A program made the position numbers and the translations under genes. 50,638 bases of DNA from a virus. Position 1 is the stretch's first letter; every line of letters begins with the position of its first letter. The notes under the pieces were generated by a model. That model searched no databases. It saw nothing but the letters and a program-made list of their open reading frames with translations, and was not told where the DNA came from. This document shows positions 11,388 to 26,816 of this stretch, one piece after another. The DNA is taken from IMG/VR virus record IMGVR_UViG_3300045922_000571, positions 1 to 50,638 of that record; one strand, written 5' to 3'.

Positions 11388-14300
11388 CTACTGCGGGCCT
11401 TCGACCAGCCGCTGGACGACTGGCCCGAGCGGCGCATGGCGGTAGGCGAGCCGCTTCCAGGCCTCAGCATCTCCAGGCTGCGTCAGGACGGTCTGCATCA
11501 CATCGGCGGCCATGCCAGCCGACGGCCCGAAGACGAATTCGAGCGGCTTGCGGCGCTCGGCGGACTCGATCATGTCCCAGACGATGCCGAGCGAACCCAC
11601 CGCTGCTGCGTCCTCGAGCCAGCGCCGCAGGCCTTCCGCATCGCGCTCCCGGCCCGTGATCAGGTTGCGTAGCGCCAGGATTGCCTCTCCGGTCAGCGGG
11701 AACAGCACCGAAAGGATGAACAGGTTCCGGAAGGCGCGGCCGAACTCGCCGCGGCGAGCCTCTTCGACGAGGCTCCTGTAGAGCAAGCGGGTTTGGCCGT
11801 AAATGAACGTCTTGAACTGGAAGAAGACCTTGCCCCAGTTCGTCGACGCCCATGCGGGGTGGTCTTGCGGCCGCGAGCGGAACTGCGTCAGGTCCGAGAA
11901 CCGCTTGGCCGCCATCAAGACCTCGTCGGCGGTGAGGCGCCGCCGCGCCAGAGCAGCATCCGGGTCGATGCCCAGCTCAAGCAGCGCCCGGCGCGCCCGC
12001 GCGTTCCGCGGGTTGCGCACCAGTTTCGCCAGCAGGCGCTCGGCGTACACAGCGCCCACATTGGCCGCCACAATCCGGTTCGCGCGTTCCGTCGCCGAAA
12101 AGCCGACAGCCTTGAGATAGCGCTCAAAGGCGCGCACCGAGCCGGCCAGTTCGCGGATCGGCTCGTGGAGCACAGGGTCGATCGTTGCGCCCGACTCGAC
12201 GGCGAGGCGCCGCCCCGGCTTGCCCAGCGCGGCCCGGATGCCCATCGCGAGCGCTGGAAAATCCGCGGCGAGCAGGCTGTTGAGCACGCCCTGAGTAGCG
12301 TTCGGGATCGCCGCCAGCCCGAGCTTCGCGGTTTGCAGGGCGCGCAGCCAGCGGCTGGCGCGCTCCATGTTCGAGTCGGCAGCGTTCGCCTGCCCGAGGA
12401 TGCGCCGCACCGCCTGATCGACCCAGTCCGCATTGCCGCCAGCGTCGGCGATGCGCCGGATGAGGCGCGCAACGACCTGGTTGTCCTGCCCCAGCTCCGC
12501 GATCTGCGCCAAGCGGATCGAAGCGCTCGCCACGTGCGTCGGCAGCACGCGCGCCGGGTCGGGGTCGTAGAACGGCAAGTCGATCTCGCGCGCGTATTCG
12601 AGCGAGCCGTGGCGGTGCATCTGCGCCCGGAACCGCAGTAGCTTCTGTAGCGCCTCATCGCGCGAGCGGGCCTGTCTGGTGCGCATCAGATACTCGATCA
12701 GCTTTTGCCGGCGTCCGCCCGTCTCGATGAAAGCGATGTACTCGTCCAGCAGCAGACTTGCGTGCTTAGCGTCCGGCTCGACCTTGAGGCGCACCAGATT
12801 CTCGATGACGTCGCGGCGCACCGGGCCGCTCCGCAAGGCGTCGATGTGACGGATCACGTGCGGGTAGTAGTCGCTCCGCCGGGCGAATAGCCGCCGCTGG
12901 CCCTCGGTGTTGCGGACGAGCACCTCCAGGTCTTCGGCTTCGTCCGCCAGCTCGTCGGTGATTTGCCGGATGACGCGGTAAGCCTGTTGGACCTGGTCGT
13001 CCATCGCATCGTCGCGGCCCTCGAGCACGTCGAGCAGGTTCCAGCGCTGCTCTCTGCTGAGCTGCGCCAAGCCCGAGTCGCCGAGGCGCAGCAGGCGCTT
13101 TCCGGCGGAGACTTCGCCCCAATCGTTTGCGCGGCGCAAGGCGTCCATCAGCGCCTTGCCGGCGCCGCCGCCCTGGCGCTCCAGGCGGACGTCGAGCGGC
13201 AGGAAGACCTCTTCGAGGAGCGCCGCAACGGCGCTGCGCCGTGCCCGGGCGCCTACTTCGCTCCGGATGCCGCGCGCCAGGCGCTGCGCATGCTCGGCGA
13301 GTGCGGTGAGCGCCTCGATCTCGATGCGGGACTGCCCCGAAGTGTCTCGCCACAGGCGCTTGGCCTCAAAGTACAGCCGCACCAACTGCCGCCGCACCGC
13401 CTCTCCGAAGCGCGCCAGCATCCGCTTGGACCACTCCGAGAACTTGACGATGCCGTCGCGGATGAGCTGCGCGCCGAACAGCAGGAAGTCCACAGTCGCC
13501 GCGCCACGCTCCCCGCCTTCCATGCCGCTTTCCGGTTCGGTTTCCATCCCCCGGCTCAGCTCGGCGGGGAATTCCTCGAGGATGCGCTTGAGGACTTGGA
13601 AGCCTTCGTCGTTGCTCGTGATGTAGTAGATCGGCACGACACCGCGCTCGTAGCGCACGCCGAGTTCGCGGAGCCGTCCGGTGTAGGCGCCAGGGTGGAC
13701 CTGGATCACCGTATTGCGTGCGACGCGCCCTCTGGTCAGGCGCACGCCGTTGGCGAGCTGATAGGGCGTGCCGTTGGAGAGCACGTCGTTCCAGACCTGC
13801 TGGGGTGTGATGCTGCGGCCCTGGGAGATCGCGGCGATCAGGTTCTGGAGCTGCGTCGGGTAGACTTCGACGCCGACGATGCGTTCGCCGCTTTCGCTGT
13901 CCTGGACGGCGTAAATGCCTCTGACGCCGGCGTCCTGAATGCGGCCCCACCAGCGCAGCACAGTGCCGCCGAGCAGGTCATGGCGCTCCGGCCGGAATTC
14001 GGGGATCGATTCGTAGGCCTTCTGCCAGAAGATTCTGGCGGCCTGCTCGCCCTCGGCGCCCTCGAACTGCTCAAGCTTGGCCTTCGCGATCGCCTCTTTC
14101 TCGCGGGCCCGTTCGATTTTGTCCTCGTAGTAAGCCTTGTCGAGCCGATCAACCGCGTCAGCCTTTTGCCGTTCGTACCGCTCGATGGTCTCTTTGTAGA
14201 ACGACAGTTCGGACTTCAGGTCATTGAGGTACTGAGCCAAGCTCTTGCGGTAAAAGCTCGCCTGTGGGACCTTGGTGCGCGCCCGGTCGGGGCGGACGAC

Positions 14301-17300
14301 ATAGTGCGCCGGTTCGACTCGTCCGTCGGCGTGCACGATATCGGGCGCGGGGAAAGCGTAGGCGATCTCATCGGGCTTGCCGCCCCGGCCCTCCGTGATG
14401 TAGAAATTCCCCTGTTTGGCGTGAGCCTGGATGATGGGCTGGAGCTGGTCGAACGAGATCCGCTCCGTTCGCACCTGCGTCTCGACGACGTAGTGGATGG
14501 TCTCTGCGCCCGTCTGATCGTCCACGGCAAGCACTTGCTTGCTGAGGATGCGCGGGCGCTCGCCGTGTAACTGCCGGACGCCCACATCGAGCGTCCCGTC
14601 TTCGATAGCCTTCTGTACGGCCTGTTCAAACAGGTCGTAGTAGATGTTGTAGGCCGTGTTTTGCACGTCCGGGTCGAGCGCGAGCAGACGGTTCAGCAGC
14701 CGGTTGACGTTGCGCCGGTCCTGGTCTTCGACATAGACCTGGCCGTCGCGCGTTCGCAGAACTCCCATCTGCGAGAGGACGTCGTGTCCGGTGAGTTCCG
14801 GCGCGATCAGCCGGTTGCGCAGCATGTAGGCGTAGAAAGCGTCTGCGGCCTGTTCGCCCTGGTCGGACTGGAAGTTCACCTTGGCGATGAGGTCGGCGTT
14901 GGCGCCGGCCGCTTCGCGGCTCCCCTTGGTGAGTGCGCCGAGCGAGCCGAGCCGGCGCGCGATGGTGGAGATGAACCGCTTTTCCCCGCCCAGGTCGGAA
15001 ACCACCATCAGGTACTCGGGAGCATGCGCCTGATTGGTGCGGTGCGTGCGGCCGAGCATCTGCATCGCCTTGTCGGCTTCCCAGCCGACTTGCAGCGTGA
15101 TATGCAGGCGCTTCTGGCGGTTCGGCTTGGTGTTGTCGGCATGCAGTGAGATGCCAGTCGAAGCGGCGTTGGAGATGATAGCGACGCGCTTCTTGCCTTC
15201 CTGGAAGGCGGCCGCTTCGGCGATGTTGACCTTCTGGCGCGCCATCCCCTTCTCGCCGCGCGGCACGAACTTGCCCGTTGCCGGGTCGTAGCGCTCTTTC
15301 CGTCCGGTCAGTTCGGCTACTTGCGCGGGACCTCCCAGCGCTTCGATCAGCTCATCGAGGGGATTCTTGGGAAGCGCCAGCTCCTGCCTGAGCTTCGCCA
15401 GCAGTTCATCGCGCAGGCGCTCGGCCTCCGGATTGATCACCGGATTGCCCGCTTCGTCTACGAGCGGCACGCGAACCGGCTTGCCGGTGGCCGGGTCGAG
15501 CTGGACCTCCCACTGCTGGACGGGGAAATGCTGCTGGATCAGGGTGATTAGGATATCCTTCGGCCCGAAATCCAGGTCGTCGCTCTCTTCCGTTCCCTCG
15601 CCTTCCTCTTCGGCGGCCTTGCGGCGGGCCTTCTCCCGCTCCTGCGCCGCCTCATTGGTGTTGATCAGCGAGATCACCACCGAGTAGCCCTGGGCCAGCG
15701 CCTGATGGGCGTGCTCGACAGCGGTCGGGATCTTCATGGCGGTCAGCAGCAGGTTGAAGAACCGCTGCTGCGCGCCAAAGAACTGGCTCATGAAGTTTGC
15801 CCGGCCGCGTGGGCCTGTTTCGGTAACCTGTAGCCCTTGCTCGACCCACTTCATGACCTCGCGCCAAGCCGCGGCTGCGTTGCGGTAGATCGCCTTCTGG
15901 TCTTCGTTGAGCGGATGGACGGCGTCTTCGCGCAGGACGACGCCCTTGTAGGAGATGGTGCGCGAGATGTAGCGGCCGCGGATCTTCAGCTCGCGCGCCA
16001 GCAGCTCCATTGCGCTCATGCCACCGCGCGAGAGCTGAAGCTGAAACTCGCTGAAGCCGTGCGGGAACGGAGTGCGCGGCCCCCATAGGCCCAGGCGCGA
16101 CAGGTAGCCCATATTCGACAGCTCGCTGGCGGCCGTGGCCGACAGGAATGTCGTGCGCGACCGCGGCACTTGCTCCAGCAGCTTTCTGACGGCCTTGCCG
16201 GTGTCAGAGGGCTGCTGCCGCCCGCTGGGGATGGCGTTCTTCAGGTTGTGCGACTCGTCGAACAGCACTACGGCGCCTTCGCCGTCGTCTTGGCCGCGCA
16301 CGTAGTCGATGATCTGGTCGATGCGCGCGCGCTCCTTGCGGTCGCGCGAGCGCAGGAACGAGTACGGGGCAAACAGAACGCCTTCGTGCTGGATGGGGAC
16401 CCCGTAGGGGAACTTGTCGGCGCGCTTGATGGTCGAAGCCAGGTAGCTGTGGCCGAGATCGTTCAGGTCGCGCTGCGCATCTTCGATCAGCCGCCAGTTG
16501 TCGCTGACCCAGATGATGCGCCGGCGGCCTTGATTCCAGTTGTCGAGGGCGATGCCGGCGATGATGCGCCCCTTGCCCACGCCCGTGCCGTCGCCAATCA
16601 GGGCCGCTGCGCGGCTGCCGTCAGGCAGGATCGTCTCGTTGGCCTGTCCGGCGAGCACAATCGCTTCCATCTGGGCGGAGGACAGCGCCCCGGAATCGAG
16701 CAGCTCCTGCGGCAGCGCGGGCTGGTACGTCAGTGGCGGCAGCTTGACGGTCGCCATCGCCTGCGTCTCGACCAGCACCCCTTTGTGCGGCGATCCCTGG
16801 ATGGAGGGCCGGTAGATGACGAACGCGCCTGCGTCCGGCTCCGGATCGACCGCCACCGGAGCCGGGATGATCTTGACCCGGTTCTCCGGGATCTCTTCCT
16901 CGGGCGGCGTCGGTTCGGCAGTGACGCCGTAGCGCGCCGCTACCTTCGCTGCGTAGCGGTGAATCTCGCGCAGGATCGAGGCGACAGTGCGCTTGGTCTC
17001 GGCGGCGAAGTGCTTGAGGATGTCCCCTGCCTCGGCGAGCATCCGCTCGCTCCAGGCCTGGAACTGCACTGCGCCTTTGACGATGTAGTTGGCGCCGATG
17101 GTCACGGCATCGATCAGGTCTTGCGGATCGATGCCGCTCTGGAGCTGCTGGCCGCGAATCTTGGCGCGCAGGCGCGCTGCGGCTTCTTGGGCAGCCTTGT
17201 CAAGCTTGCTGAGCGCCTCCGAACTCGCTTTGGGCTTAGCGCCCGGCTGCGTCTTGATCGGCGGCGGCTGCGTCACAAAACGCGGCGTCGCCGGCGCCGG

Positions 17301-20300
17301 AGACTTCTGAGAGGATTCCTCAGGGGCAAGCTCTCCGCCCAAGGCGCTCGTTGCGGCGTCGAGAAGATCGTCGATCGAAAGCCCAGAAGCTGCGGTCAGG
17401 TCGCTTCCGGGTTCAATGACTACAGGTCGGCTACGTCGGGGTTGGCGGCTCGGACGAGAGCTCGGAGGACGCTCGGCGGGTCCAGTTTCGGCCAGTGGTT
17501 GCCCGCTATGTTCAACTGGCTCATGTCCAGTTGGTTCGGCGTGTTGAACTCCTCCAGCTTGTTGACCAGCAGCTCCGCCGGCCAGCTCTCCATGGGGACC
17601 AAAAAGGCTTCCTTGATCGTCCAGACGGGGACGCCCAGCTCCTCCGCCAGTTGCTTGGTCTGCTCCGGATACTCCAGGTAGGCCAACCAGGCCAGGCGCA
17701 GCGCCGCCTCCTTGGCCAGCTTCGGATTCAGGCCGCCCAGGCGCTCCTTGGCTTGCTTGGTCAGTTCCACCTTGGGTTGCGGCCGCTCCGGGCGTGGCAC
17801 CTGGTCGAACTCCCGGCCGCGCTGCATCATCTGCGCCCAGAATTCGTCCCGGGAGGATTGCCCGGAGGGCTTCATAGGCCTCCTCAACCGAGTTATAACT
17901 CCCCTGGGCGACGTTGGCAAGCTGTTGCGCCAAGGTAGCGCCAGGGGTGGGACCCGTCTTGTCGATGACGATCACCTGCACCGGCATCGAGGTGCCGTAC
18001 TTGGCGTACTCTTTGCCGCTGAGCCGGACATTCGCCAGGACGTTGTAGTGGCCGACTGTGCGCTCCCAGTAATGGCGCGCTCCGGGAGCGTTGATTCCGG
18101 CGCCTTCGACGCGCTCGAAGCCCGAGCGCCCGCCAGTGAGCAGCGCGACGAGCCGCCCGCCCGGCTGGAGGCGCTGCAGCGCCTGATCGAGATGCATGAA
18201 ACCGTAGCGCAGGTTCTTGAGCGCCCCGCCTGCGGCGCGCGTAAACGGCGGGTTCATGACGATCAGCGTCGGCCGCACGTCGCGCTCGAGCAGCGCGTTC
18301 AGCACCTCGGCGTTGTGGCGCGTCGCTTTGGGCAGGCCGATCGCTTCCGCCAGCTCGGCGCGCTGCGGATCGATTTCGTTGAGGTGCGTGCGCGCCACCA
18401 GCGGCTCGAGCAATGCGGCGAGGCCTCCGACGCCGGCGGAAGGCTCGAGAAGCACGTCGTCCGGGCGCGGCTCAGCGAGCTTGGCGACCAGCAGCGCGAT
18501 GGTCGGTGGCGTCGAGAACTGCTGTAGGTCGATCTGCTCCTGATTGCGCACCGTCTCGGTGGCGAGGCGGCTGAGGACGCCGCGGAGTTCGCGTGCGGCC
18601 TCATCGAAAGGCATCTGGATGAGCCTGCTGGCGTGGTCGCGCAGCCAGGAATTGACGGCGGCCTCCTGCGCCTCGTAGAGATCGCGCATCTCGAAGGCGC
18701 CTGCGGCGCGCGTTCCGCCGAAGATCTCCTCACCGATGCGCTCCAGCCGCAGGCGAATGTCTTCGGCCGACTCGATCGCCTCGCGGATGCGCCGCACCAG
18801 CCGGAGCAGCGCATCCTTCCGGCTGAGCGGCCCGGCCGCTTCAGGCTCGCGCCGAGCGCGGCGCGCGGCATCGGCCAGATGCCTGAGGTCGGGCTCTTGC
18901 GCCGCCATTCTCTCGATGGCTGCGTCGAGATCCCCGGTCTGGACGTAGGCCTGCTGTAGGCCGATCAGCCAAGCGAGAGCTTGCTGGTGATCTTCGTTGC
19001 TGCCGTACCAGTGCAGCTCTCCCTTCAAGTCGACAGCGCCAACGGCGCGCGCCAGGGCGCGCACGACGGGGTGCTGGCTGTCCAGGCGCTCGAGATCGAC
19101 CCACTGGTAGCCGGTCTCGCGCTCGAACTCCTGGACGCTCGGCCAGACGCGCTCGCCCGTGGGAATGCCATTGAACTCTTCGGTGGCGATTACGCGATCC
19201 CCATCGCGCTTCACAGTCCAGTAGTGCGGCTCTCCGGTCTGTGGATCGGTTCCGAGCTGGATTTGCGCGCCCTCCCAGGCTCGCTTCGGGGCCCCAGCGG
19301 CGAGGCCAGCGCCGCCCGCGGCCGGCGGGGCAGGCGCCGGCGCGGGTTGCGGCGCGGGTTGCGGCGCGGGAGTGTCGATGACCTCTGTGATCTTCAAGGC
19401 GCGCGACATCCGCTCAATGGCGCGGCGGTTCTTTTCGGTGTTGTCGACCAGCCACGCCTTGCGGTTCGGGTCCCACTTGGCTCCGGACAGCTTGGCGATC
19501 ATGCGCCGCCAGCGGTAGGTGTCGCCAGTGACGGCGATCTTTTCCGCCTTGGGCGGCGCAGCGGGAGGTTGGGGCGCGGGCGCAGGCGCGGGAGCAGGCG
19601 CGGGAGCAGGCGCAGGCGCAGGCGCGGCTTCGGATTCGAGCGGTTCCAGGTCGCTGTCGGCGGTCTTCCCCTGCCGGATCGCTTCGGGCGACTGGAAGGA
19701 ATCGACCCGAATCACCCAGCGCGGATCGCTCGGGCGCGGGCGCAGCTCTTCGAGCGATCCAACGCCGCTCAGCCGCCACCCATCGCCGCTGTCGATGATC
19801 GAGTAGTGCGTCAGCTCGGGGTGGCGCTGGCGGTATTCGGCAAGCGTCTCGGCGTAGCCCTGGCGCAGCGTCGGCTTGATGTAGCGCTCGAAGCCGTATT
19901 CGTTGAGCGGGAGGATTTTTTGGCGGGTGCCGAATGCCTGCCCCCCCTCTTTGTTGCGCATCCACTGGTAGAGTTCCACGCCCTCTCGAGGCGGAGCTGA
20001 CGGCGGCGGAGGCGGCGCGGCAGCCTGTTCAGCGGACTCTTCCGGCGGCAGGACCTGCTCGCGGAGTTTCTGGTACTCGCGCTCGAAAACCGGCGCATAC
20101 TCCTGCACCCACTCGGGATCGGTCGATCGGTAGGGACGCCACCAGCCGTCTTCAGTGCGCGTTGCGTACGTGTCACGAGGCACGCCGAAGACTGTCGACC
20201 AGCCAAGCACCCTGGCGTAGAGCTTGTTGCGATCCGCCGGATTCGGCGCTGCCGGGCCGATTACTTCGATGGTTATTACGTAGTCAGAGTCATCGAGACG

Positions 20301-23300
20301 GAACGGATCGCCTTGGACGGTCTGGGGCCACTTCAGGCGGATCTTGCCCCCCTCCGGCGGCGGTTCCGGAGGCAAGACGTGCTCCAGAAGCTTCTGGTAC
20401 TCGCGCTCGAAGGCCTCAGCGACGCCCGCGATAAATTGCGGGCTGGTACGCCCGGCGGGATGCCAGCCGCCTTCGGGCGAACGCGTGGCGATTTGGTCGC
20501 CGGGAGCGCCGCCCGACCAGAAGTTGGCCGTTCCGTAGAGCTTGCCGCGGTTGGCCGGGTTGGGCGCCTGAGGGCCTATGACCCCAACGCGCACAACGTA
20601 GTTGAATTCGCCGACACGGAACGGTGGGCTTTCTAAGCTCTTGCCGTGGTCGAGGCGGATCTTGCCCCCCTCCGGCGGAGGCGGCTCGTAGGCTTCTTCC
20701 TCCGGGGCAGGGGGCGCTTGCGGAGGCTCTTGCGGGCGCAAGCCGCTGGCCGGTTGCTGGACCTGGCCCAGTTGCGGGCGGAAAGCTTGCGGCTCGACGT
20801 GCACGATTTCGCCGGCGGCCTGCTGCGGCGTCGGCGGTGCTCCGGGCACGGTCTCAGCCATAGGTAGCGCCAGCTCCGGCGCTTGCGGGCGCAAGCCGCT
20901 GGCGGGTTGCTGGACCTGGCCCGGTTGCGGCCGGAAAGCTTGCGGCTCGACGCGCGCGGCTTCGCCGGCCGCCTGCTGCGGCCCTAGCGGCGTCTGGACA
21001 AATCCAGCGCGGCCAGGAGCTGGAGTTTCCGTAAGCCGTCCAAGCCACTGCTCGGCGCGCTCGGCGATGCGCTCGTAGGAGGCGCGGCGCTCCTCCCAGT
21101 TCACGCTTCCGGGCTGGACTTTGGCGGCCTGCGCGCGCGTCCGATCGCGCAAGTCCTCGAGGATTTCCCGCGCCGTCACAGGGCGGTTCTGGGAGCGGAT
21201 CACCGGGCCGGCGATCGCAGCGAACTTGTCGACCATGCGCACCGCGATCGCGATGTCATCATCGGAAGTCCCTGGGGTGGCCAGCAGGCGGACGAGCTGT
21301 CCCGACCACCGCCCGTGAGCGCCGGTTGCGGCGCCCATCGGGTACTTCGCCGTGGCATATTCCAGATCTTCGTACTCGGCCTCCTGCTCTAAAGCGCTCT
21401 TGGGCGGCGCGGCCGGAGCTTCCGGAGGAGCTGCCGGAGCTTCCGGCGGGGCGAACAGATCCAGTTGCGGCGTTGCCGCTTTCGGGCCGCGCTGTCGCGG
21501 CCGCGCGGGAGCAGAGGCAGGCGGAGCCTGCTCACCCTCGGGGCCTTCCACGAAATGGACTGGCGGGCCGAGCAACACGTACCGCTTGCCCCGGTAGGAC
21601 GGCTTGACGCCGTGGTAATAGCCGAGCGGGTCACGCAGATCGTACTTCGGGCTTCCTTGGAACTCCTCAGCCGGACGCAGCCGATAGGCTTCGTGGTAGC
21701 CCTCCCCGGGCACGTCGCTGCGCGAAATGGATACCGTCACCCATTGCTCGCCATTCCAGTTGAACGGCCGCCTGATCCGCGGGTTTTTCTTGCTGCTGAG
21801 CAGGTCCCCGGAGTAGGCGTCCCAGATGTCGCCACCGGCGTTGAGGCGGGCGGGAGCGACTCGGATGCGCTCCGGCTCCTGGATCTGCTCGGCAGCGGCG
21901 GAGGCCTCCGCCGCTGGAGCGGCTTGGGGCTGCTCTGAGGCGCTCCGGATCGCCTCGCGCCGCTTCCAGAGACGCTTGGCCGACTCCGTCTGCGCTGGGG
22001 CGGGGATGACGCGCGCAGGCGCGCCGATGCGGGCCGAGTGGGCCTGCTCGGCGGCGTCGTACATCGCATTGGCGATGCCGCGCCCGCGGTAGGACGGGAC
22101 GACCGCCACGTGCAGCGGCACCAGCTCGGAGGCCTCCGGCGTGCGCCCGGAGATGGCGCCGAACTTCGGCCCCTCGGCCAAGCGGGCGTAGCCGACCACG
22201 TTCTCCGGCTTGAGTCCGCGCTGGGCGAGCTGCTCGCGCCACGCTTTGCTGCCAGTGATGCCGTCGAGGTGGTAGTCGGCCAGATAGCCGGTGATGGCAT
22301 CCTGTTCGCGGCCCAGGCTGGCTTTCGGATGGGCTGCGATGACTACGTAGCCCTCGGGGCTGGGGAGAGTGACGATCTGGCCGCCGGAAGCGGCAAAGTC
22401 ATCCTCTGCCGGGCGGGCCAAGCTGGGGTCGAACAGCAGGTAACTCGTTGCCCGCTTGCCCGTGTCGCCATGCCACTCGTTGATCTTGGCGCTGTCGTAG
22501 CCAGCCTTGCGCAGCGCCTTGGCAAGCTCCTCGCCGGCGAAGTCTCCGAAGTACTGGAGAAGCTCCGCGCCATCGGGTTCGGCAAAGCGCAGCCGCTTGT
22601 CCAGCTCGGCGCTCACCTCGACGCCGTTCTCTTCAAGGAAGCTGCGTAAGGTTTCCGGCTGGACAAATTCGTCGGCTTCGAAGCGGCTCGAAAGGTCCAG
22701 CGTGCGCTTCGGCGAAATCAACAGCCGCTGCGTGTAGTCGCCGAACGCCTTGCTGTAGTCCCGGTCTTCGGTCACGTACAGCACGCCCTTGTCGTTGAGC
22801 GCAATTGGGGCATTCGGGGTGCGCGAGGACCGGAAGACTTCGATCTCAGGCGCAGCGGCGCGCACCGGCTGCTGAGCGCGGAGGCCGCTCGCAGGCCGCC
22901 GAATTTCCGGAGGCCGGGTCAGGAACACGGGCGCGCCGCGCTGGGGCTGTTGCTGCCCGCCTGCCGGAGGAGCCGGAACCGGCGCCGGACCCGCCGCGGG
23001 CGGCGGCTGAATTTGCGGCAACGCAAGCCCTCCAGGCTGCCGGATCGCTGGAGGGGCAGTGATGAACCTCGGGGTGCGGCCGGCAGGGCTGGCAGGCTCC
23101 GCAGCGGGTCTGGGAGGGGTTTTGACGAAGCCCGCCATCGGCGGCGGCTGCGGCTCCGGGCGCTCGGCTTGCTGAGGCGCAGGCGGGGCAGACGGGGGAG
23201 TCGGCGCGGCTTGCTGGGGAGCAGGGGGGGCAGCCGGGGCGGCTGGGGAGGCAATCCCCTGCGGAATGATCCGCTGAGCGCTGCCAGGGCCGGCTACCGC

Positions 23301-26300
23301 ATCGACAGCGCGTGCGATCAGCTCGAGCTTGCCGGGTACCGTGACCTGGCCGAACAGGTTGGCCTGGTCGGGATGGCCGAAGGCGCGCACCTGATCGGCA
23401 TAGGCGCGCAGGATCTCGGCAAGCTGGCGCGGACTGTTGCCATACTGGTCAAAGACACGCAGCCATGCCTCGCCTTCGGGCGCTAGATCGCGCCCGAACA
23501 TAGGCTGCTGGAGCAGATAATCCTCAACCGTTTGGGAACGGGAGCGCAAGTAGGCGAGCTTGCGCGCCGCCGCAGCAATGTCGCGCGCCGCCGAGAGCGG
23601 CTGGAGCGCTCCAGCCTGAATGTCGGCTTCGAGCCGCGCCATCTGCGGCGCTGCCCGCAGCAGGCCGTCTGTGATGCGCCGCGCGGTGTCGTCACGCGCC
23701 TCGGCCATGCGCTCGACGCCGGAGACGTCGCCGCCATAGGCAGCGGCAAAGATCGCGTTGCGCAGCCTGCGCTCGCCGTCCTGATTGAGCTGGCCGTCGC
23801 GGTCCATGTAGGCGCCGCGCTCGGCGGGCGGCACCGCGAGGTCAAAGAACTGCCGGATGAACTCGGCGTTGGCCTGCGTGCCGATGTCGCCGCTCTCCGA
23901 CGGCTGGAAAGTAGCGAGCAGGTCCGGCGTGAGCTTCTTGGCGTCGCTGGCGGCCAGCTCCGCCGGGCTGCGGCGCGCCACGGTCTCTGCATTGGACTCG
24001 TCAGCGAACCGGCCAAGAGCCACCTTGCCGACGAGCACGCGGCGCAGAGACGGCATCTTCATGGCATCGACCGCCGCCGGGTCGAGGCCGACCTGAGGCG
24101 CAAGCCGCTTCAAGTAGTCGCGGTAGGCGGCGGCGCGCTGCGGATAGAGTTCGTACATCAGGCGCTGGGCCAGCGTCCGGCCATTGCCGGAGATGGTCAC
24201 CATGCGCCCGTCCGGGAGCACGACGTCGATGGGAGCGCCTTGGCTGGCGAGGCGGCTCGGCCCGGCCTGCTCCGGATCGAAGTTGCGCGCCAGATCCTCG
24301 ATCTGGGCGCGCGAAGCCGTCCGAGCGCGTTGGCGGCCCTGGTACTGCTGCGGGTAGAGGGGGTTTTCGTTGCCGGTGAGGTCGTGGGAGACGACGACCG
24401 GATCTTCGGCTAAGTCAGCGAGCACCCACTGCGCTTGCGCGGGAGTGCCTTGCGGAGTGACGACCTCTTCGACTTTGCCGCGGCGGCCTTCCGGGAGCGC
24501 CGAGGCCTCCGGAGCCTCATACTCGGTCTCTCCTTGCGCCTGGCTGCCCACCGCCACGGTCGTCAACGGCGGCGGCGCGTGGCCGATGAATTTGCCTTCC
24601 GAGTCGAGTTTTTGATCGCGGATCAGCTCGGCCATGATCCGCGCTGCCGTGTCCCGGTCTACGCCCAGTGCGTTCTGGATGCCGATGCGCCGGATGCGCC
24701 CCTCGCGCTGGGCAATGGCGAGCGCTTCGCTTTTGAGCTGCTCAATGTCCTGCGGCGCTCCGGGCGCACCGGGGGCTTGCGCGGTGGGAGCCGTTGCGCC
24801 GGGCTGGCCGCCTGGAGGCGTTTCGGGCCCCATCGAGGGCAGTTGGCCCGCGATGCTGTAGTACTTCCGTCCGTTGCGATCCTCGACGGCGACGGCGCCC
24901 TGGTCGTAAAGCTCGTCGAGGATCTCCCGAGTCAGGCGCGGAGAGATCGCCAGCTCGTCGAGGATCTCTTGCCGGGTAACGGGCCGGCTCTTGCTCCGGA
25001 GGTAGTCGAGGATCTGCTGGGTCTGTTTGGAGAGATCGACTGCGGGACCAGGCGGCGCTGTGGGAGGGGTTCCTGGGCGAGCCGCTGGCGCGCCTGCGCC
25101 TTCCGGCAGTTCCGCTTGGCTGCGCTCGCGCGCCGCCTCGTGCGCCCGCCGGAGGATCGGCTCGCCAATTAGCACAGATGCGCCCGCGCCGATGGTGGAT
25201 TCGAGCAAGCCTTCGTCGAGCGGGCGGCCCGAAGCGTAGTTGGAGGCGATCTGCTGGGAGTTCTCCTGCGCCACCTCCATGGCCGCATCCCAGAGGATGC
25301 GCTTGACGGTGCTCGCCGCGCGCGGGTCGTACAGGCCCAGGGCGTTGAACAGGACCGTCGGCCCGGCGGAATACAGCGCCGACTTGCGCGCGATCTCGGC
25401 CGCCTCTTCGGGCGTTTTGCCCTGCTTGGCCGCCTCGGCGGCGTCCATGCCCGCCTGGGAGATGGTTTCCAGAGCGCTGCCGGTAGCGAGCATTCCGGCA
25501 GCGTTGGCGATCTGAGCGGCGCGGCCAGTGATGCCAGCGAGGCGCACCAGCCGGTCGACCACTGCGCCCGTACCGGCGGCCGAGCCGGCAAAGCCTGCCA
25601 TCGAACCCATCGCGCTTCCGGTGACGCGCGCCCACCACTCCGGCGCCCAAGTCTCCGGCTCGCCTTGGGGTTGATAGAAGAAGTTCTCCAGCGTCTCGCC
25701 AGTCGCCGCGATCGCGTTGCCGATCGAGCGCATCACCGGCGAGTCCTGGCTCTGGCTGGCGATGAACTGCCCAAGGCCGGTGCCCAGCCCGATAGCGCCT
25801 TTGACGAACGAACCCAGAAACTCTGATCCGACCTTGCCCAGGCGGCCGGGCAGCGGAGCGTTCTCGGCGCTGTAGAGCGCCTGCTCGGGCTTGGTGCCCA
25901 GCAGGTCGAGCGGAACCGGCTCGATCGGCGCGCGGGCTTGCGGCACGCCCGGAAGCTGGCCGCCGAGGCGCTCGGTGCCGGGGATCGGGCCTTGGGCGTA
26001 GCGCTGGAGATTCTCCTCATAGAGCCTGCGGCCCAGCTCGAATTGCTTGGCAGCCTGGTCGAGCGCCTGGACCTCGGCCTCCAGCGCCGAACGGCCCGCC
26101 TCGAACTCGTTCATGCGCTGCTGGTAGCCCTCGACCAGCGGCTGGACGATTTTCGGCCCCGAGCGGCCGAGCAAAGCCGACAGCCGCCCGACTTCGACCG
26201 GCGCTAACTCCAGCTCCGAGCGGCGCTGGTGAAGATCCTTCGACAGCGCTTCGATGCGCGCCCGGCGGGCATCGATATCCGCCGCCAGACGCTCAAGCTG

Positions 26301-26816
26301 CTCGCGGCTGGGAATCGGAGTGTACTGATCCAGGAAGGCGTCCAGATCGTCGAGCGATGCGGCGCCGTTGCCGGTTCCATTGCCGTTGCCGTTGCTGGCT
26401 CCGTTGCCGCTCGGCCCGCCGGAGCCGTTACGGTGCTTTTCGACCAGCGTCAAGGCGCGCTCGACGTCGCGCTCGGTCGCCCCGCCCGCTTCGACGCCCT
26501 TATAGGCCCGGAAGGCTTGCGCGACATCGCCGCCGTGGCGGTTGATGAGCTGGCTCAGATAGCGGACACCACCCTCGATGTTCTGGTCGAGATCCTCGCG
26601 GTCGATGCCGAGCTGGCGCGCCGTGCGCTCGGTGAACTGGAAGACGCCGCGCGCCCCGGTGGGAGAGGTAGCCGACTGGCGAAAGTCGGATTCGCTCTCG
26701 GCCAGCCCGAGAGCAATGGCCGGGTCGACGCCGTATTTGTTGGCGGCGCTACGGATTTTTCCGATGATCGCTTGGGAGTCGAACTGGTCGAGGAAGGCGT
26801 CGAGTTCGTCACGCAT
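11388..26816 (-). CDS. Giant polyvalent virion protein (5,142 residues): transglycosylase, ParB-like, ART, GNAT, methyltransferase and helicase regions
   Basis: One uninterrupted frame covers about 30% of the genome. Rough domain order: lytic transglycosylase (14-110; E42 in ESDF, SPTGARGVFQF); Gly/Asn linker; coiled coil; Gly-rich hydrophobic segments (330-480); two winged-HTH segments (590-660, 690-745); DdrB-like ParB domain (770-1160; ISGNGRTLAQRL); Pro-rich linker; ADP-ribosyltransferase-like region (1310-1470); GNAT domain (1500-1620; VVPSYRGRGIANAMYDAA); two tandem 106-residue repeats (2040-2270); N6-adenine methyltransferase (2650-2960; LEPSAGVGG, N2855-PPF); strawberry-notch-type SF2 helicase (3230-4330; GTGVGKGRI with K3415, DESH at about 3520, QMLGRTHRTNQ at about 3915); helical C-terminus of the large polyvalent type (4440-5142). 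Such proteins are ejected with phage DNA to open the cell wall and shield or modify the genome. The upstream genes are ejection proteins, which supports this. Domain edges are estimates. Confidence 0.9.
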   Translation of the reverse strand: MRDELDAFLDQFDSQAIIGKIRSAANKYGVDPAIALGLAESESDFRQSATSPTGARGVFQFTERTARQLGIDREDLDQNIEGGVRYLSQLINRHGGDVAQAFRAYKGVEAGGATERDVERALTLVEKHRNGSGGPSGNGASNGNGNGTGNGAASLDDLDAFLDQYTPIPSREQLERLAADIDARRARIEALSKDLHQRRSELELAPVEVGRLSALLGRSGPKIVQPLVEGYQQRMNEFEAGRSALEAEVQALDQAAKQFELGRRLYEENLQRYAQGPIPGTERLGGQLPGVPQARAPIEPVPLDLLGTKPEQALYSAENAPLPGRLGKVGSEFLGSFVKGAIGLGTGLGQFIASQSQDSPVMRSIGNAIAATGETLENFFYQPQGEPETWAPEWWARVTGSAMGSMAGFAGSAAGTGAVVDRLVRLAGITGRAAQIANAAGMLATGSALETISQAGMDAAEAAKQGKTPEEAAEIARKSALYSAGPTVLFNALGLYDPRAASTVKRILWDAAMEVAQENSQQIASNYASGRPLDEGLLESTIGAGASVLIGEPILRRAHEAARERSQAELPEGAGAPAARPGTPPTAPPGPAVDLSKQTQQILDYLRSKSRPVTRQEILDELAISPRLTREILDELYDQGAVAVEDRNGRKYYSIAGQLPSMGPETPPGGQPGATAPTAQAPGAPGAPQDIEQLKSEALAIAQREGRIRRIGIQNALGVDRDTAARIMAELIRDQKLDSEGKFIGHAPPPLTTVAVGSQAQGETEYEAPEASALPEGRRGKVEEVVTPQGTPAQAQWVLADLAEDPVVVSHDLTGNENPLYPQQYQGRQRARTASRAQIEDLARNFDPEQAGPSRLASQGAPIDVVLPDGRMVTISGNGRTLAQRLMYELYPQRAAAYRDYLKRLAPQVGLDPAAVDAMKMPSLRRVLVGKVALGRFADESNAETVARRSPAELAASDAKKLTPDLLATFQPSESGDIGTQANAEFIRQFFDLAVPPAERGAYMDRDGQLNQDGERRLRNAIFAAAYGGDVSGVERMAEARDDTARRITDGLLRAAPQMARLEADIQAGALQPLSAARDIAAAARKLAYLRSRSQTVEDYLLQQPMFGRDLAPEGEAWLRVFDQYGNSPRQLAEILRAYADQVRAFGHPDQANLFGQVTVPGKLELIARAVDAVAGPGSAQRIIPQGIASPAAPAAPPAPQQAAPTPPSAPPAPQQAERPEPQPPPMAGFVKTPPRPAAEPASPAGRTPRFITAPPAIRQPGGLALPQIQPPPAAGPAPVPAPPAGGQQQPQRGAPVFLTRPPEIRRPASGLRAQQPVRAAAPEIEVFRSSRTPNAPIALNDKGVLYVTEDRDYSKAFGDYTQRLLISPKRTLDLSSRFEADEFVQPETLRSFLEENGVEVSAELDKRLRFAEPDGAELLQYFGDFAGEELAKALRKAGYDSAKINEWHGDTGKRATSYLLFDPSLARPAEDDFAASGGQIVTLPSPEGYVVIAAHPKASLGREQDAITGYLADYHLDGITGSKAWREQLAQRGLKPENVVGYARLAEGPKFGAISGRTPEASELVPLHVAVVPSYRGRGIANAMYDAAEQAHSARIGAPARVIPAPAQTESAKRLWKRREAIRSASEQPQAAPAAEASAAAEQIQEPERIRVAPARLNAGGDIWDAYSGDLLSSKKNPRIRRPFNWNGEQWVTVSISRSDVPGEGYHEAYRLRPAEEFQGSPKYDLRDPLGYYHGVKPSYRGKRYVLLGPPVHFVEGPEGEQAPPASAPARPRQRGPKAATPQLDLFAPPEAPAAPPEAPAAPPKSALEQEAEYEDLEYATAKYPMGAATGAHGRWSGQLVRLLATPGTSDDDIAIAVRMVDKFAAIAGPVIRSQNRPVTAREILEDLRDRTRAQAAKVQPGSVNWEERRASYERIAERAEQWLGRLTETPAPGRAGFVQTPLGPQQAAGEAARVEPQAFRPQPGQVQQPASGLRPQAPELALPMAETVPGAPPTPQQAAGEIVHVEPQAFRPQLGQVQQPASGLRPQEPPQAPPAPEEEAYEPPPPEGGKIRLDHGKSLESPPFRVGEFNYVVRVGVIGPQAPNPANRGKLYGTANFWSGGAPGDQIATRSPEGGWHPAGRTSPQFIAGVAEAFEREYQKLLEHVLPPEPPPEGGKIRLKWPQTVQGDPFRLDDSDYVITIEVIGPAAPNPADRNKLYARVLGWSTVFGVPRDTYATRTEDGWWRPYRSTDPEWVQEYAPVFEREYQKLREQVLPPEESAEQAAAPPPPPSAPPREGVELYQWMRNKEGGQAFGTRQKILPLNEYGFERYIKPTLRQGYAETLAEYRQRHPELTHYSIIDSGDGWRLSGVGSLEELRPRPSDPRWVIRVDSFQSPEAIRQGKTADSDLEPLESEAAPAPAPAPAPAPAPAPAPQPPAAPPKAEKIAVTGDTYRWRRMIAKLSGAKWDPNRKAWLVDNTEKNRRAIERMSRALKITEVIDTPAPQPAPQPAPAPAPPAAGGAGLAAGAPKRAWEGAQIQLGTDPQTGEPHYWTVKRDGDRVIATEEFNGIPTGERVWPSVQEFERETGYQWVDLERLDSQHPVVRALARAVGAVDLKGELHWYGSNEDHQQALAWLIGLQQAYVQTGDLDAAIERMAAQEPDLRHLADAARRARREPEAAGPLSRKDALLRLVRRIREAIESAEDIRLRLERIGEEIFGGTRAAGAFEMRDLYEAQEAAVNSWLRDHASRLIQMPFDEAARELRGVLSRLATETVRNQEQIDLQQFSTPPTIALLVAKLAEPRPDDVLLEPSAGVGGLAALLEPLVARTHLNEIDPQRAELAEAIGLPKATRHNAEVLNALLERDVRPTLIVMNPPFTRAAGGALKNLRYGFMHLDQALQRLQPGGRLVALLTGGRSGFERVEGAGINAPGARHYWERTVGHYNVLANVRLSGKEYAKYGTSMPVQVIVIDKTGPTPGATLAQQLANVAQGSYNSVEEAYEALRAILPGRILGADDAARPGVRPGATPGAAATQGGTDQASQGAPGRPESEAGQGGGAAPGLVGLPGVSGADQATGGGAGRPRLDDQGSLFGPHGELAGGAAGQQAGGVQHAEPTGHEPVEHSGQPLAETGPAERPPSSRPSRQPRRSRPVVIEPGSDLTAASGLSIDDLLDAATSALGGELAPEESSQKSPAPATPRFVTQPPPIKTQPGAKPKASSEALSKLDKAAQEAAARLRAKIRGQQLQSGIDPQDLIDAVTIGANYIVKGAVQFQAWSERMLAEAGDILKHFAAETKRTVASILREIHRYAAKVAARYGVTAEPTPPEEEIPENRVKIIPAPVAVDPEPDAGAFVIYRPSIQGSPHKGVLVETQAMATVKLPPLTYQPALPQELLDSGALSSAQMEAIVLAGQANETILPDGSRAAALIGDGTGVGKGRIIAGIALDNWNQGRRRIIWVSDNWRLIEDAQRDLNDLGHSYLASTIKRADKFPYGVPIQHEGVLFAPYSFLRSRDRKERARIDQIIDYVRGQDDGEGAVVLFDESHNLKNAIPSGRQQPSDTGKAVRKLLEQVPRSRTTFLSATAASELSNMGYLSRLGLWGPRTPFPHGFSEFQLQLSRGGMSAMELLARELKIRGRYISRTISYKGVVLREDAVHPLNEDQKAIYRNAAAAWREVMKWVEQGLQVTETGPRGRANFMSQFFGAQQRFFNLLLTAMKIPTAVEHAHQALAQGYSVVISLINTNEAAQEREKARRKAAEEEGEGTEESDDLDFGPKDILITLIQQHFPVQQWEVQLDPATGKPVRVPLVDEAGNPVINPEAERLRDELLAKLRQELALPKNPLDELIEALGGPAQVAELTGRKERYDPATGKFVPRGEKGMARQKVNIAEAAAFQEGKKRVAIISNAASTGISLHADNTKPNRQKRLHITLQVGWEADKAMQMLGRTHRTNQAHAPEYLMVVSDLGGEKRFISTIARRLGSLGALTKGSREAAGANADLIAKVNFQSDQGEQAADAFYAYMLRNRLIAPELTGHDVLSQMGVLRTRDGQVYVEDQDRRNVNRLLNRLLALDPDVQNTAYNIYYDLFEQAVQKAIEDGTLDVGVRQLHGERPRILSKQVLAVDDQTGAETIHYVVETQVRTERISFDQLQPIIQAHAKQGNFYITEGRGGKPDEIAYAFPAPDIVHADGRVEPAHYVVRPDRARTKVPQASFYRKSLAQYLNDLKSELSFYKETIERYERQKADAVDRLDKAYYEDKIERAREKEAIAKAKLEQFEGAEGEQAARIFWQKAYESIPEFRPERHDLLGGTVLRWWGRIQDAGVRGIYAVQDSESGERIVGVEVYPTQLQNLIAAISQGRSITPQQVWNDVLSNGTPYQLANGVRLTRGRVARNTVIQVHPGAYTGRLRELGVRYERGVVPIYYITSNDEGFQVLKRILEEFPAELSRGMETEPESGMEGGERGAATVDFLLFGAQLIRDGIVKFSEWSKRMLARFGEAVRRQLVRLYFEAKRLWRDTSGQSRIEIEALTALAEHAQRLARGIRSEVGARARRSAVAALLEEVFLPLDVRLERQGGGAGKALMDALRRANDWGEVSAGKRLLRLGDSGLAQLSREQRWNLLDVLEGRDDAMDDQVQQAYRVIRQITDELADEAEDLEVLVRNTEGQRRLFARRSDYYPHVIRHIDALRSGPVRRDVIENLVRLKVEPDAKHASLLLDEYIAFIETGGRRQKLIEYLMRTRQARSRDEALQKLLRFRAQMHRHGSLEYAREIDLPFYDPDPARVLPTHVASASIRLAQIAELGQDNQVVARLIRRIADAGGNADWVDQAVRRILGQANAADSNMERASRWLRALQTAKLGLAAIPNATQGVLNSLLAADFPALAMGIRAALGKPGRRLAVESGATIDPVLHEPIRELAGSVRAFERYLKAVGFSATERANRIVAANVGAVYAERLLAKLVRNPRNARARRALLELGIDPDAALARRRLTADEVLMAAKRFSDLTQFRSRPQDHPAWASTNWGKVFFQFKTFIYGQTRLLYRSLVEEARRGEFGRAFRNLFILSVLFPLTGEAILALRNLITGRERDAEGLRRWLEDAAAVGSLGIVWDMIESAERRKPLEFVFGPSAGMAADVMQTVLTQPGDAEAWKRLAYRHAPLGPVVQRLVEGPQ
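17420..17875 (-). CDS. Gene nested in another frame inside the giant polyvalent gene
   Basis: ATG 17875 is preceded on the minus strand by AGGAGG with a 3-base spacer, and the frame stays open to TAG at 17420 (151 residues). Its frame is +1 to the giant gene, whose own residues here (about 2981-3132) are a Gly/Ala/Pro/Gln linker between methyltransferase and helicase. The nested product instead has the balanced composition of a folded protein: EFWAQMMQRGREFDQVPRPE, a Lys-rich turn, then LAKEAALRLAWLAYLEYPEQ, LGVPVWTIKEAFLVPMESWP, FNTPNQLDMSQLNIAGNHWP and SVLRALVRAANPDVADL. It contains six Trp and several Phe, Tyr, Asn and Ile, which GC-rich shadow frames rarely give. I recognise no family. 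Two compensating frameshifts in the giant gene are the main alternative reading. Confidence 0.6.
   Translation of the reverse strand: MKPSGQSSRDEFWAQMMQRGREFDQVPRPERPQPKVELTKQAKERLGGLNPKLAKEAALRLAWLAYLEYPEQTKQLAEELGVPVWTIKEAFLVPMESWPAELLVNKLEEFNTPNQLDMSQLNIAGNHWPKLDPPSVLRALVRAANPDVADL
19571..19625 (-). repeat. GC-rich microsatellite coding for an Ala-Pro run
   Basis: Repeats of GGCGCGGGAGCA and GGCGCA encode an alternating Ala-Pro stretch of about 18 residues in the giant protein, a stiff linker ahead of the segment preceding the methyltransferase. A shorter run (GGCGCGGGTTGC) follows at about 19336-19370. Confidence 0.8.
20043..20680 (-). repeat. Two tandem 106-residue repeats inside the giant protein
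   Basis: Each unit begins PPEGGKIRL and ends FEREYQKL..HVLPPE or ..QVLPPE. The shared core is VIGPxAPNPAxRxKLY followed by ATR and a tryptophan-rich turn. The first unit lies at about 20362-20680 and the second at about 20043-20361. The copies differ at most positions, so the duplication is old. No known domain recognised. Confidence 0.7.
20729..20982 (-). repeat. In-frame 153-bp duplication in a linker of the giant gene
   Basis: A block of about 100 bases at 20729-20829 recurs at 20882-20982, offset 153 bp (51 codons), with only a few differences. It encodes the linker sequence VEPQAFRPQ.GQVQQPASGL twice. The near identity shows a recent tandem duplication that lengthened a Pro/Gln-rich linker. 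Confidence 0.8.

Follow-up and report, generated by a model that had tools for sequence, protein, structure and literature searches.

The giant polyvalent gene of the window (the whole stretch of viral DNA analysed, a record of 50,638 bases with 67% G+C) carries, in the linker between its methyltransferase and helicase regions, a second open reading frame which, on comparative evidence, is very probably a genuine protein-coding gene translated separately from its host gene, a judgement that does not extend to the role of its product. Such a separate gene in another frame of this linker had been proposed from the letters of the window alone, and, once the Sphingomonadales group is set aside, 121 of the 125 assessable loci have an ORF at the same place and in the same frame. 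The coordinates, the length of 151 residues, the AGGAGG motif before the ATG and the gene's own stop codon were all exactly as originally described. The features concerned are the following:

11388..26816, minus strand: host gene, giant DarB-like polyvalent protein of 5142 aa (from the ORF and Pfam pieces)
26496..26756, minus strand: SLT transglycosylase domain (PF01464) of the giant protein, E 7.2e-16
24039..24398, minus strand: ddrB-ParB domain (PF18763) of the giant protein, E 5.3e-19
17976..18716, minus strand: adenine-methyltransferase domain (NPPF motif) immediately 5' of the nested gene; identity to 7 aligned relatives 39-47%
17879..17884, minus strand: Shine-Dalgarno-like AGGAGG of the nested gene, read from the sequence
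17420..17875, minus strand: putative nested gene of 151 aa (ATG 17875-17873, TAG 17422-17420), in the +1 frame of the giant gene
15882..16790, minus strand: Strawberry-notch-type helicase AAA_34 (PF13872), downstream of the nested gene, E 6e-96
14574..15365, minus strand: Helicase_C_4 (PF13871), C-terminal domain of Strawberry notch homologue, E 1.5e-82

Judged by its domains, the host gene is that of a DarB-like polyvalent protein. Indeed, an adenine methyltransferase is followed by an SF2/Strawberry-notch helicase, the former being assigned by alignment, with a Pfam MTS match of only E 0.008; a weak GNAT match is also present, and the neighbouring genes are those for DNA ejection, head closure, portal, scaffold and terminase. 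The same features are shared with the DarB-like proteins of phages and conjugative elements, including DarB of phage P1 (Iyer et al. 2017, PMC5512222), namely (i) an adenine methyltransferase and then an SF2 helicase, together with ddrB-ParB and SLT domains, and (ii) a position beside phage head and ejection genes, and an occurrence on conjugative plasmids as well. A gene in another frame is not mentioned in that paper as far as a term search of it can tell. In contrast to the present gene, the cultured DarB-like genes examined (Parlo, H66, Skulduggery, 45A6 and others) are without such a nested ORF; the sole candidate among the cultured DarB-like phages examined was found in Bacteroides phage BS-TP4 (PQ571277), where an unannotated +1-frame ORF of 119 aa lies in the methyltransferase-helicase linker (L171:3737-4096); its composition signature is modest, and a search of the phage collection found no relatives by sequence.

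In the window, the whole nested ORF is contained in the minus-strand ORF 26816-11388, in the +1 frame relative to it, i.e. two complete reading frames lie one within the other on the same strand. Translation of the host frame over the same bases gave a Gly/Ala/Pro/Gln linker, in agreement with the original prediction. The AGGAGG motif, which in the host frame forms part of the codons for Val-Glu-Glu-Ala, stands only 3 nt from the ATG, a short spacing, but an overlapping GAGG gives a spacing of 6 nt. The ATG straddles two host codons, TAT-GAA in the window and, for example, AAT-GAC in many relatives. A perfect 12-base palindrome (GAGTTATAACTC, window 17890-17901) is located just upstream of the ribosome-binding site.

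The length of the ORF in the window taken alone differs little from chance (P ~0.03 by codon shuffling, 0.155 by synonymous recoding) and is, by itself, weak evidence for a gene in a genome of 67% G+C. Codon-position composition is strong evidence. Within the nested ORF, the G+C content of host codon positions 1, 2 and 3 is.875,.68 and.40, versus.73,.49 and.81 over the entire giant gene, and that of the nested-frame positions is.68,.40 and.88; because the host-frame pattern is inverted there, the nested frame bears the normal coding signature. Among the 25 alternative-frame ORFs of at least 60 aa in the giant gene, the nested ORF is the only one in which host GC3 falls (.43), the remaining 24 having values of.69-.89. 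Host GC3 was likewise lower within the nested ORF than outside it in every one of 106 distinct loci (.35 versus.59).

Substitutions followed the same frame. In 109 related pairs, the proportions of differences at host codon positions 1, 2 and 3 were.45,.32 and.26 inside the nested ORF and.20,.12 and.55 outside it; since these pairs share sequences, the test was repeated on 37 disjoint pairs, each aligned by the nested frame, whose third position was the most variable in 34 of them. No clear excess at the third position was seen in WIN-L090 or WIN-L014, the nearest pairs of the window being too diverged for such a test. Under synonymous recoding of the nested proteins of the 106 loci, 678 stops would be expected in the host frame and none was found; for the window alone 4.3 would be expected (P 0.013), the null being built on the codon usage of the host gene, which is an approximation. 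A relative with a long linker, a nested frame broken by stops and an intact giant frame, which had been named as the case speaking against a nested gene, was sought among these loci and no example was found. As read from the aligned relatives, purifying selection on the nested frame is shown at the level of the family, the window's own pairs being too diverged, and the giant frame is shown to be kept open by selection at the same time. This comparative evidence, unlike ORF length, is decisive for the nested gene.

The signals for translation are also conserved. The chosen start is an ATG in 114 of 115 loci, and a Shine-Dalgarno match of at least 5 bases precedes 62 of 105 nested starts (59%), taken as the first +1-frame ATG at the expected place, versus 361 of the 7251 remaining +1-frame ATGs in these genes (5%). 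In many relatives, stops close the nested frame shortly before the ATG. The host residues across the ribosome site are conserved, roughly as LLEG(I/V)RN(D/E)R, as would be expected because the same bases encode Glu-Gly in the host frame and serve the nested frame as a ribosome site. The enrichment of internal Shine-Dalgarno sites supports translation independent of the giant protein, as the original prediction had held for the product. Independence in a wider sense is not borne out, as nearly every copy lies within the host gene, and the copies found on conjugative plasmids also set aside a virion-specific gene.

A total of 161 loci, including the window, was gathered by similarity to the methyltransferase of the window. 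A +1-frame ORF was present at the same site, behind the methyltransferase and before the helicase, in 121 of these 161 loci, which is not an unbiased frequency given the mode of collection; it was absent from 35, and in 5 the contig ends too early. The ORFs were located with tblastn, 115 of them by script and the others by reading, four being credited in this way (L065, L084, L101, L138) and two being cut or masked (L054, L103). The loci without the gene comprise 31 of Sphingomonadales type, a few of which have a broken host frame, as well as L153, L164, L100 and L048; in L048, another domain occupies the place of the nested gene. Where the nested ORF is present, the +2 frame is almost devoid of ORFs, and the start offset is 127 or 106 nt in 75 of 115 loci. 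According to the host records, the carriers are phage contigs and genomes labelled Methylococcales, Clostridia, Desulfovibrionales, Acidobacteriota and Spirochaetota, among others, and A+T-rich genomes are included.

The linker measures 216-499 aa (median 253) where the nested gene is present and 132-412 aa (median 187) where it is not, and the proteins without it that were measured, of about 1415-1540 residues, consist of the methyltransferase and the helicase only. In L100, an Acidobacteriaceae MAG and a close relative of the host gene (protein of about 1526 codons), the nested gene and most of the linker are gone together while the host frame is intact. Because linkers without the gene are short, and because L100 lacks both, the linker seems to owe its existence to the nested gene. 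The original prediction was of a new gene overprinted in a linker with few constraints; its location in the linker holds, whereas the gene, judged by its distribution, is old and widespread and not peculiar to one phage, and the linker hardly looks spare. The gene may have originated either by overprinting or as a ready-made gene that was inserted.

The predicted product of the window is acidic to near-neutral (pI 5.5; family median 4.8) and its AlphaFold model is all-helical (mean pLDDT 85.8, pTM 0.73). BLAST divided the nested products into two families, one of 85 members (A3, the main family), whose model is also compact and helical (pLDDT 87.8, AlphaFold), and one of 11 members (A2), which holds that of the window. 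Comparison of the two profiles gave a weak but co-linear match (E 8.4e-5, probability 60%), and their location is identical. A profile built from relatives without the window picked the nested ORF of the window among 682 six-frame ORFs with an E value of 2.5e-6, the next being 2.7. Direct searches with the window product, run against viral contigs, genome contigs and phage records, found no relative, and in plasmids they gave only noise (E>1); the relatives were reached only through the neighbouring methyltransferase. Searches of Pfam, PHROGs, NCBIfam and PADLOC gave only stray, weak, single matches for the family, and sequence search of the PDB gave no convincing match to the nested product. 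Foldseek against BFVD gave no match at E<=0.001 for either model, and the best VIA-align Z scores against the PDB were 3.0 and 3.2, a level that is uninformative for helical proteins and does not make the fold new.

Profile scans of about 1070 genomes, independent of the methyltransferase, recovered four further loci with the nested gene again behind a methyltransferase (L188, L189, L190, L192) and two exceptions. In L191, a Desulfovibrionales genome, an apparently free-standing homologue lies on the reverse strand at about 1507-1881, downstream of an aldolase-like gene and with no methyltransferase or helicase adjoining, so that the tie to the host gene is not absolute. In L194, an acidobacterial genome, a remnant (1159-1794) retains the nested ORF and the first part of the host linker, no methyltransferase or helicase being found beside it. 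The nested gene is also carried by conjugative plasmids, namely MEALZ_p of Methylotuvimicrobium alcaliphilum 20Z and a plasmid of Methylomonas sp. LL1, in both cases within a gene annotated as 'strawberry notch-like' and with no gene of its own annotated in the PLSDB table, which is incomplete. Methylotuvimicrobium buryatense 5G is a further strain that carries it. On these plasmids (L211, NC_016108.1; L212, NZ_CP064652.1) the giant strawberry-notch gene that bears it lies directly downstream of genes for traI, a T4SS coupling protein, traF and topoisomerase III. Elsewhere, other polyvalent-gene linkers contain +1-frame ORFs of 78-82 aa with a dip in host GC3 (L130:2321-2557, L089:1902-2150, L101:3651-3899), those of L130 and L089 with a good Shine-Dalgarno match (5 and 7 bases, respectively); they are possibly further hidden genes of the same sort.

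Three other readings of the nested ORF carry little weight. The open +1 frame could be a by-product of composition, Gly/Ala/Pro-rich linkers in G+C-rich genomes leaving it open with no protein made. The length of the window's ORF, within reach of chance under synonymous recoding, agrees with this, but the gene is also found in A+T-rich genomes, its protein sequence, start and ribosome site are conserved, the inversion of codon-position composition is present in all 106 loci, substitutions track the nested frame, and the signature is absent from the other alternative-frame ORFs of the same gene, which makes this reading hardly credible. Ribosomal frameshifting, which would yield a truncated methyltransferase with the nested sequence as a C-terminal tail, is very improbable: the frames do overlap, the ORF begins just after the methyltransferase domain and, in the window, the stop-to-stop nested frame is open upstream of the ATG (183 codons), but the near-invariant ATG and the enriched Shine-Dalgarno sites point to internal initiation, the nested frame is closed by upstream stops in many relatives, and no obvious slippery site was seen on reading the sequences by eye. 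Very unlikely, too, is a homing or otherwise mobile insertion in the linker. A precedent for the layout, an open host frame with another frame coding in a phage methylase gene, is the ShiLan-type HNH endonuclease, which occurs out of frame in mycobacteriophage methylases, scattered and without a ribosome site (PMC11855218). However, none of 55 members of the nested family matches an HNH or other nuclease family in Pfam, there being no HNH match for the window product either, and the gene is nearly fixed at one site and in one frame instead of being scattered (the 121 of 125 loci above). The identities of nested and methyltransferase sequences are correlated (Spearman 0.42), as vertical inheritance predicts, which also counts against mobility.

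As to its role, almost all copies of the nested gene, whether on phages or on conjugative plasmids, lie within one host gene, and genes with a short linker are without it. For these reasons, the location of the gene tentatively suggests that the product could be a companion of the giant methyltransferase-helicase; it may even be, with slightly greater reserve, an obligate cis-encoded partner of a giant methyltransferase-helicase delivered to the recipient cell by phages and conjugative plasmids. Anti-defence factors are often small, acidic proteins. A product acting on its own, early or late, as an effector against restriction, against other defences or in host regulation, and sharing with the host gene no more than its mRNA and the neighbourhood of an anti-restriction protein, would fit the family's median pI, its fast evolution, the apparently free-standing copy in L191 and the nature of polyvalent proteins as conflict proteins (PMC5512222). 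Such an effector is a serious rival, though somewhat less probable than a companion: in phages and conjugative plasmids alike, and across several phyla, nearly all other copies sit within one host gene, which points to a link with the host protein, and the best PADLOC match was E 0.015, although that library covers defence and not anti-defence proteins. Our guess ranks a companion of the host protein first and a separate anti-defence effector second.

Whatever the role, one mRNA is very probably translated twice. Ribosomes on the giant gene would read the stretch through as a flexible Gly/Ala/Pro linker, while other ribosomes would initiate internally at the nested ATG and produce a free helical protein of 100-150 residues. 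In the producing cell, this small protein might, less surely, act on behalf of the host protein as chaperone, inhibitor or delivery factor, and would then hold the methyltransferase-helicase until packaging or transfer.

Nested genes, and an out-of-frame gene in a phage methylase gene, are already known; no earlier description of the present family was found in the literature searched, coverage of which took in few subscription journals and preprints. Like the ShiLan HNH endonuclease, its product is encoded out of frame within a phage methylase gene that itself remains open, but the family differs in that it (i) has no HNH or nuclease similarity, (ii) has a ribosome-binding site and an ATG instead of a GTG start, (iii) sits almost invariably at one site, in hosts from several phyla, whereas the ShiLan gene is scattered, and (iv) occupies a linker between domains, outside the enzyme itself. 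Reviews have covered long overlapping genes, same-strand or antisense, in bacteria and viruses (PMC8227390, PMC8665328), where two proteins likewise share one stretch of DNA in different frames; an antisense case is ardD in tniA (PMC3533173). Most documented long bacterial overlaps are young orphans or antisense, whereas the nested family is old, on the same strand and shared by phages and plasmids; its nested frame is, moreover, the more constrained of the two.

In summary, old, widespread, same-strand nested genes have seldom been documented in bacterial mobile elements, and selection on two frames shows one here; one of the largest classes of conflict proteins thereby gains a protein family that had gone unannotated. 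Annotation programs routinely omit overlapping genes, and the linkers of polyvalent proteins are suggested as a place to look for further hidden genes. The gene is readily testable, as a single T-to-C change would abolish the nested start and leave the giant protein unchanged. If the partnership is real, a gene carried inside the gene of its client would represent both a new protein family and a new tie between partner and client.
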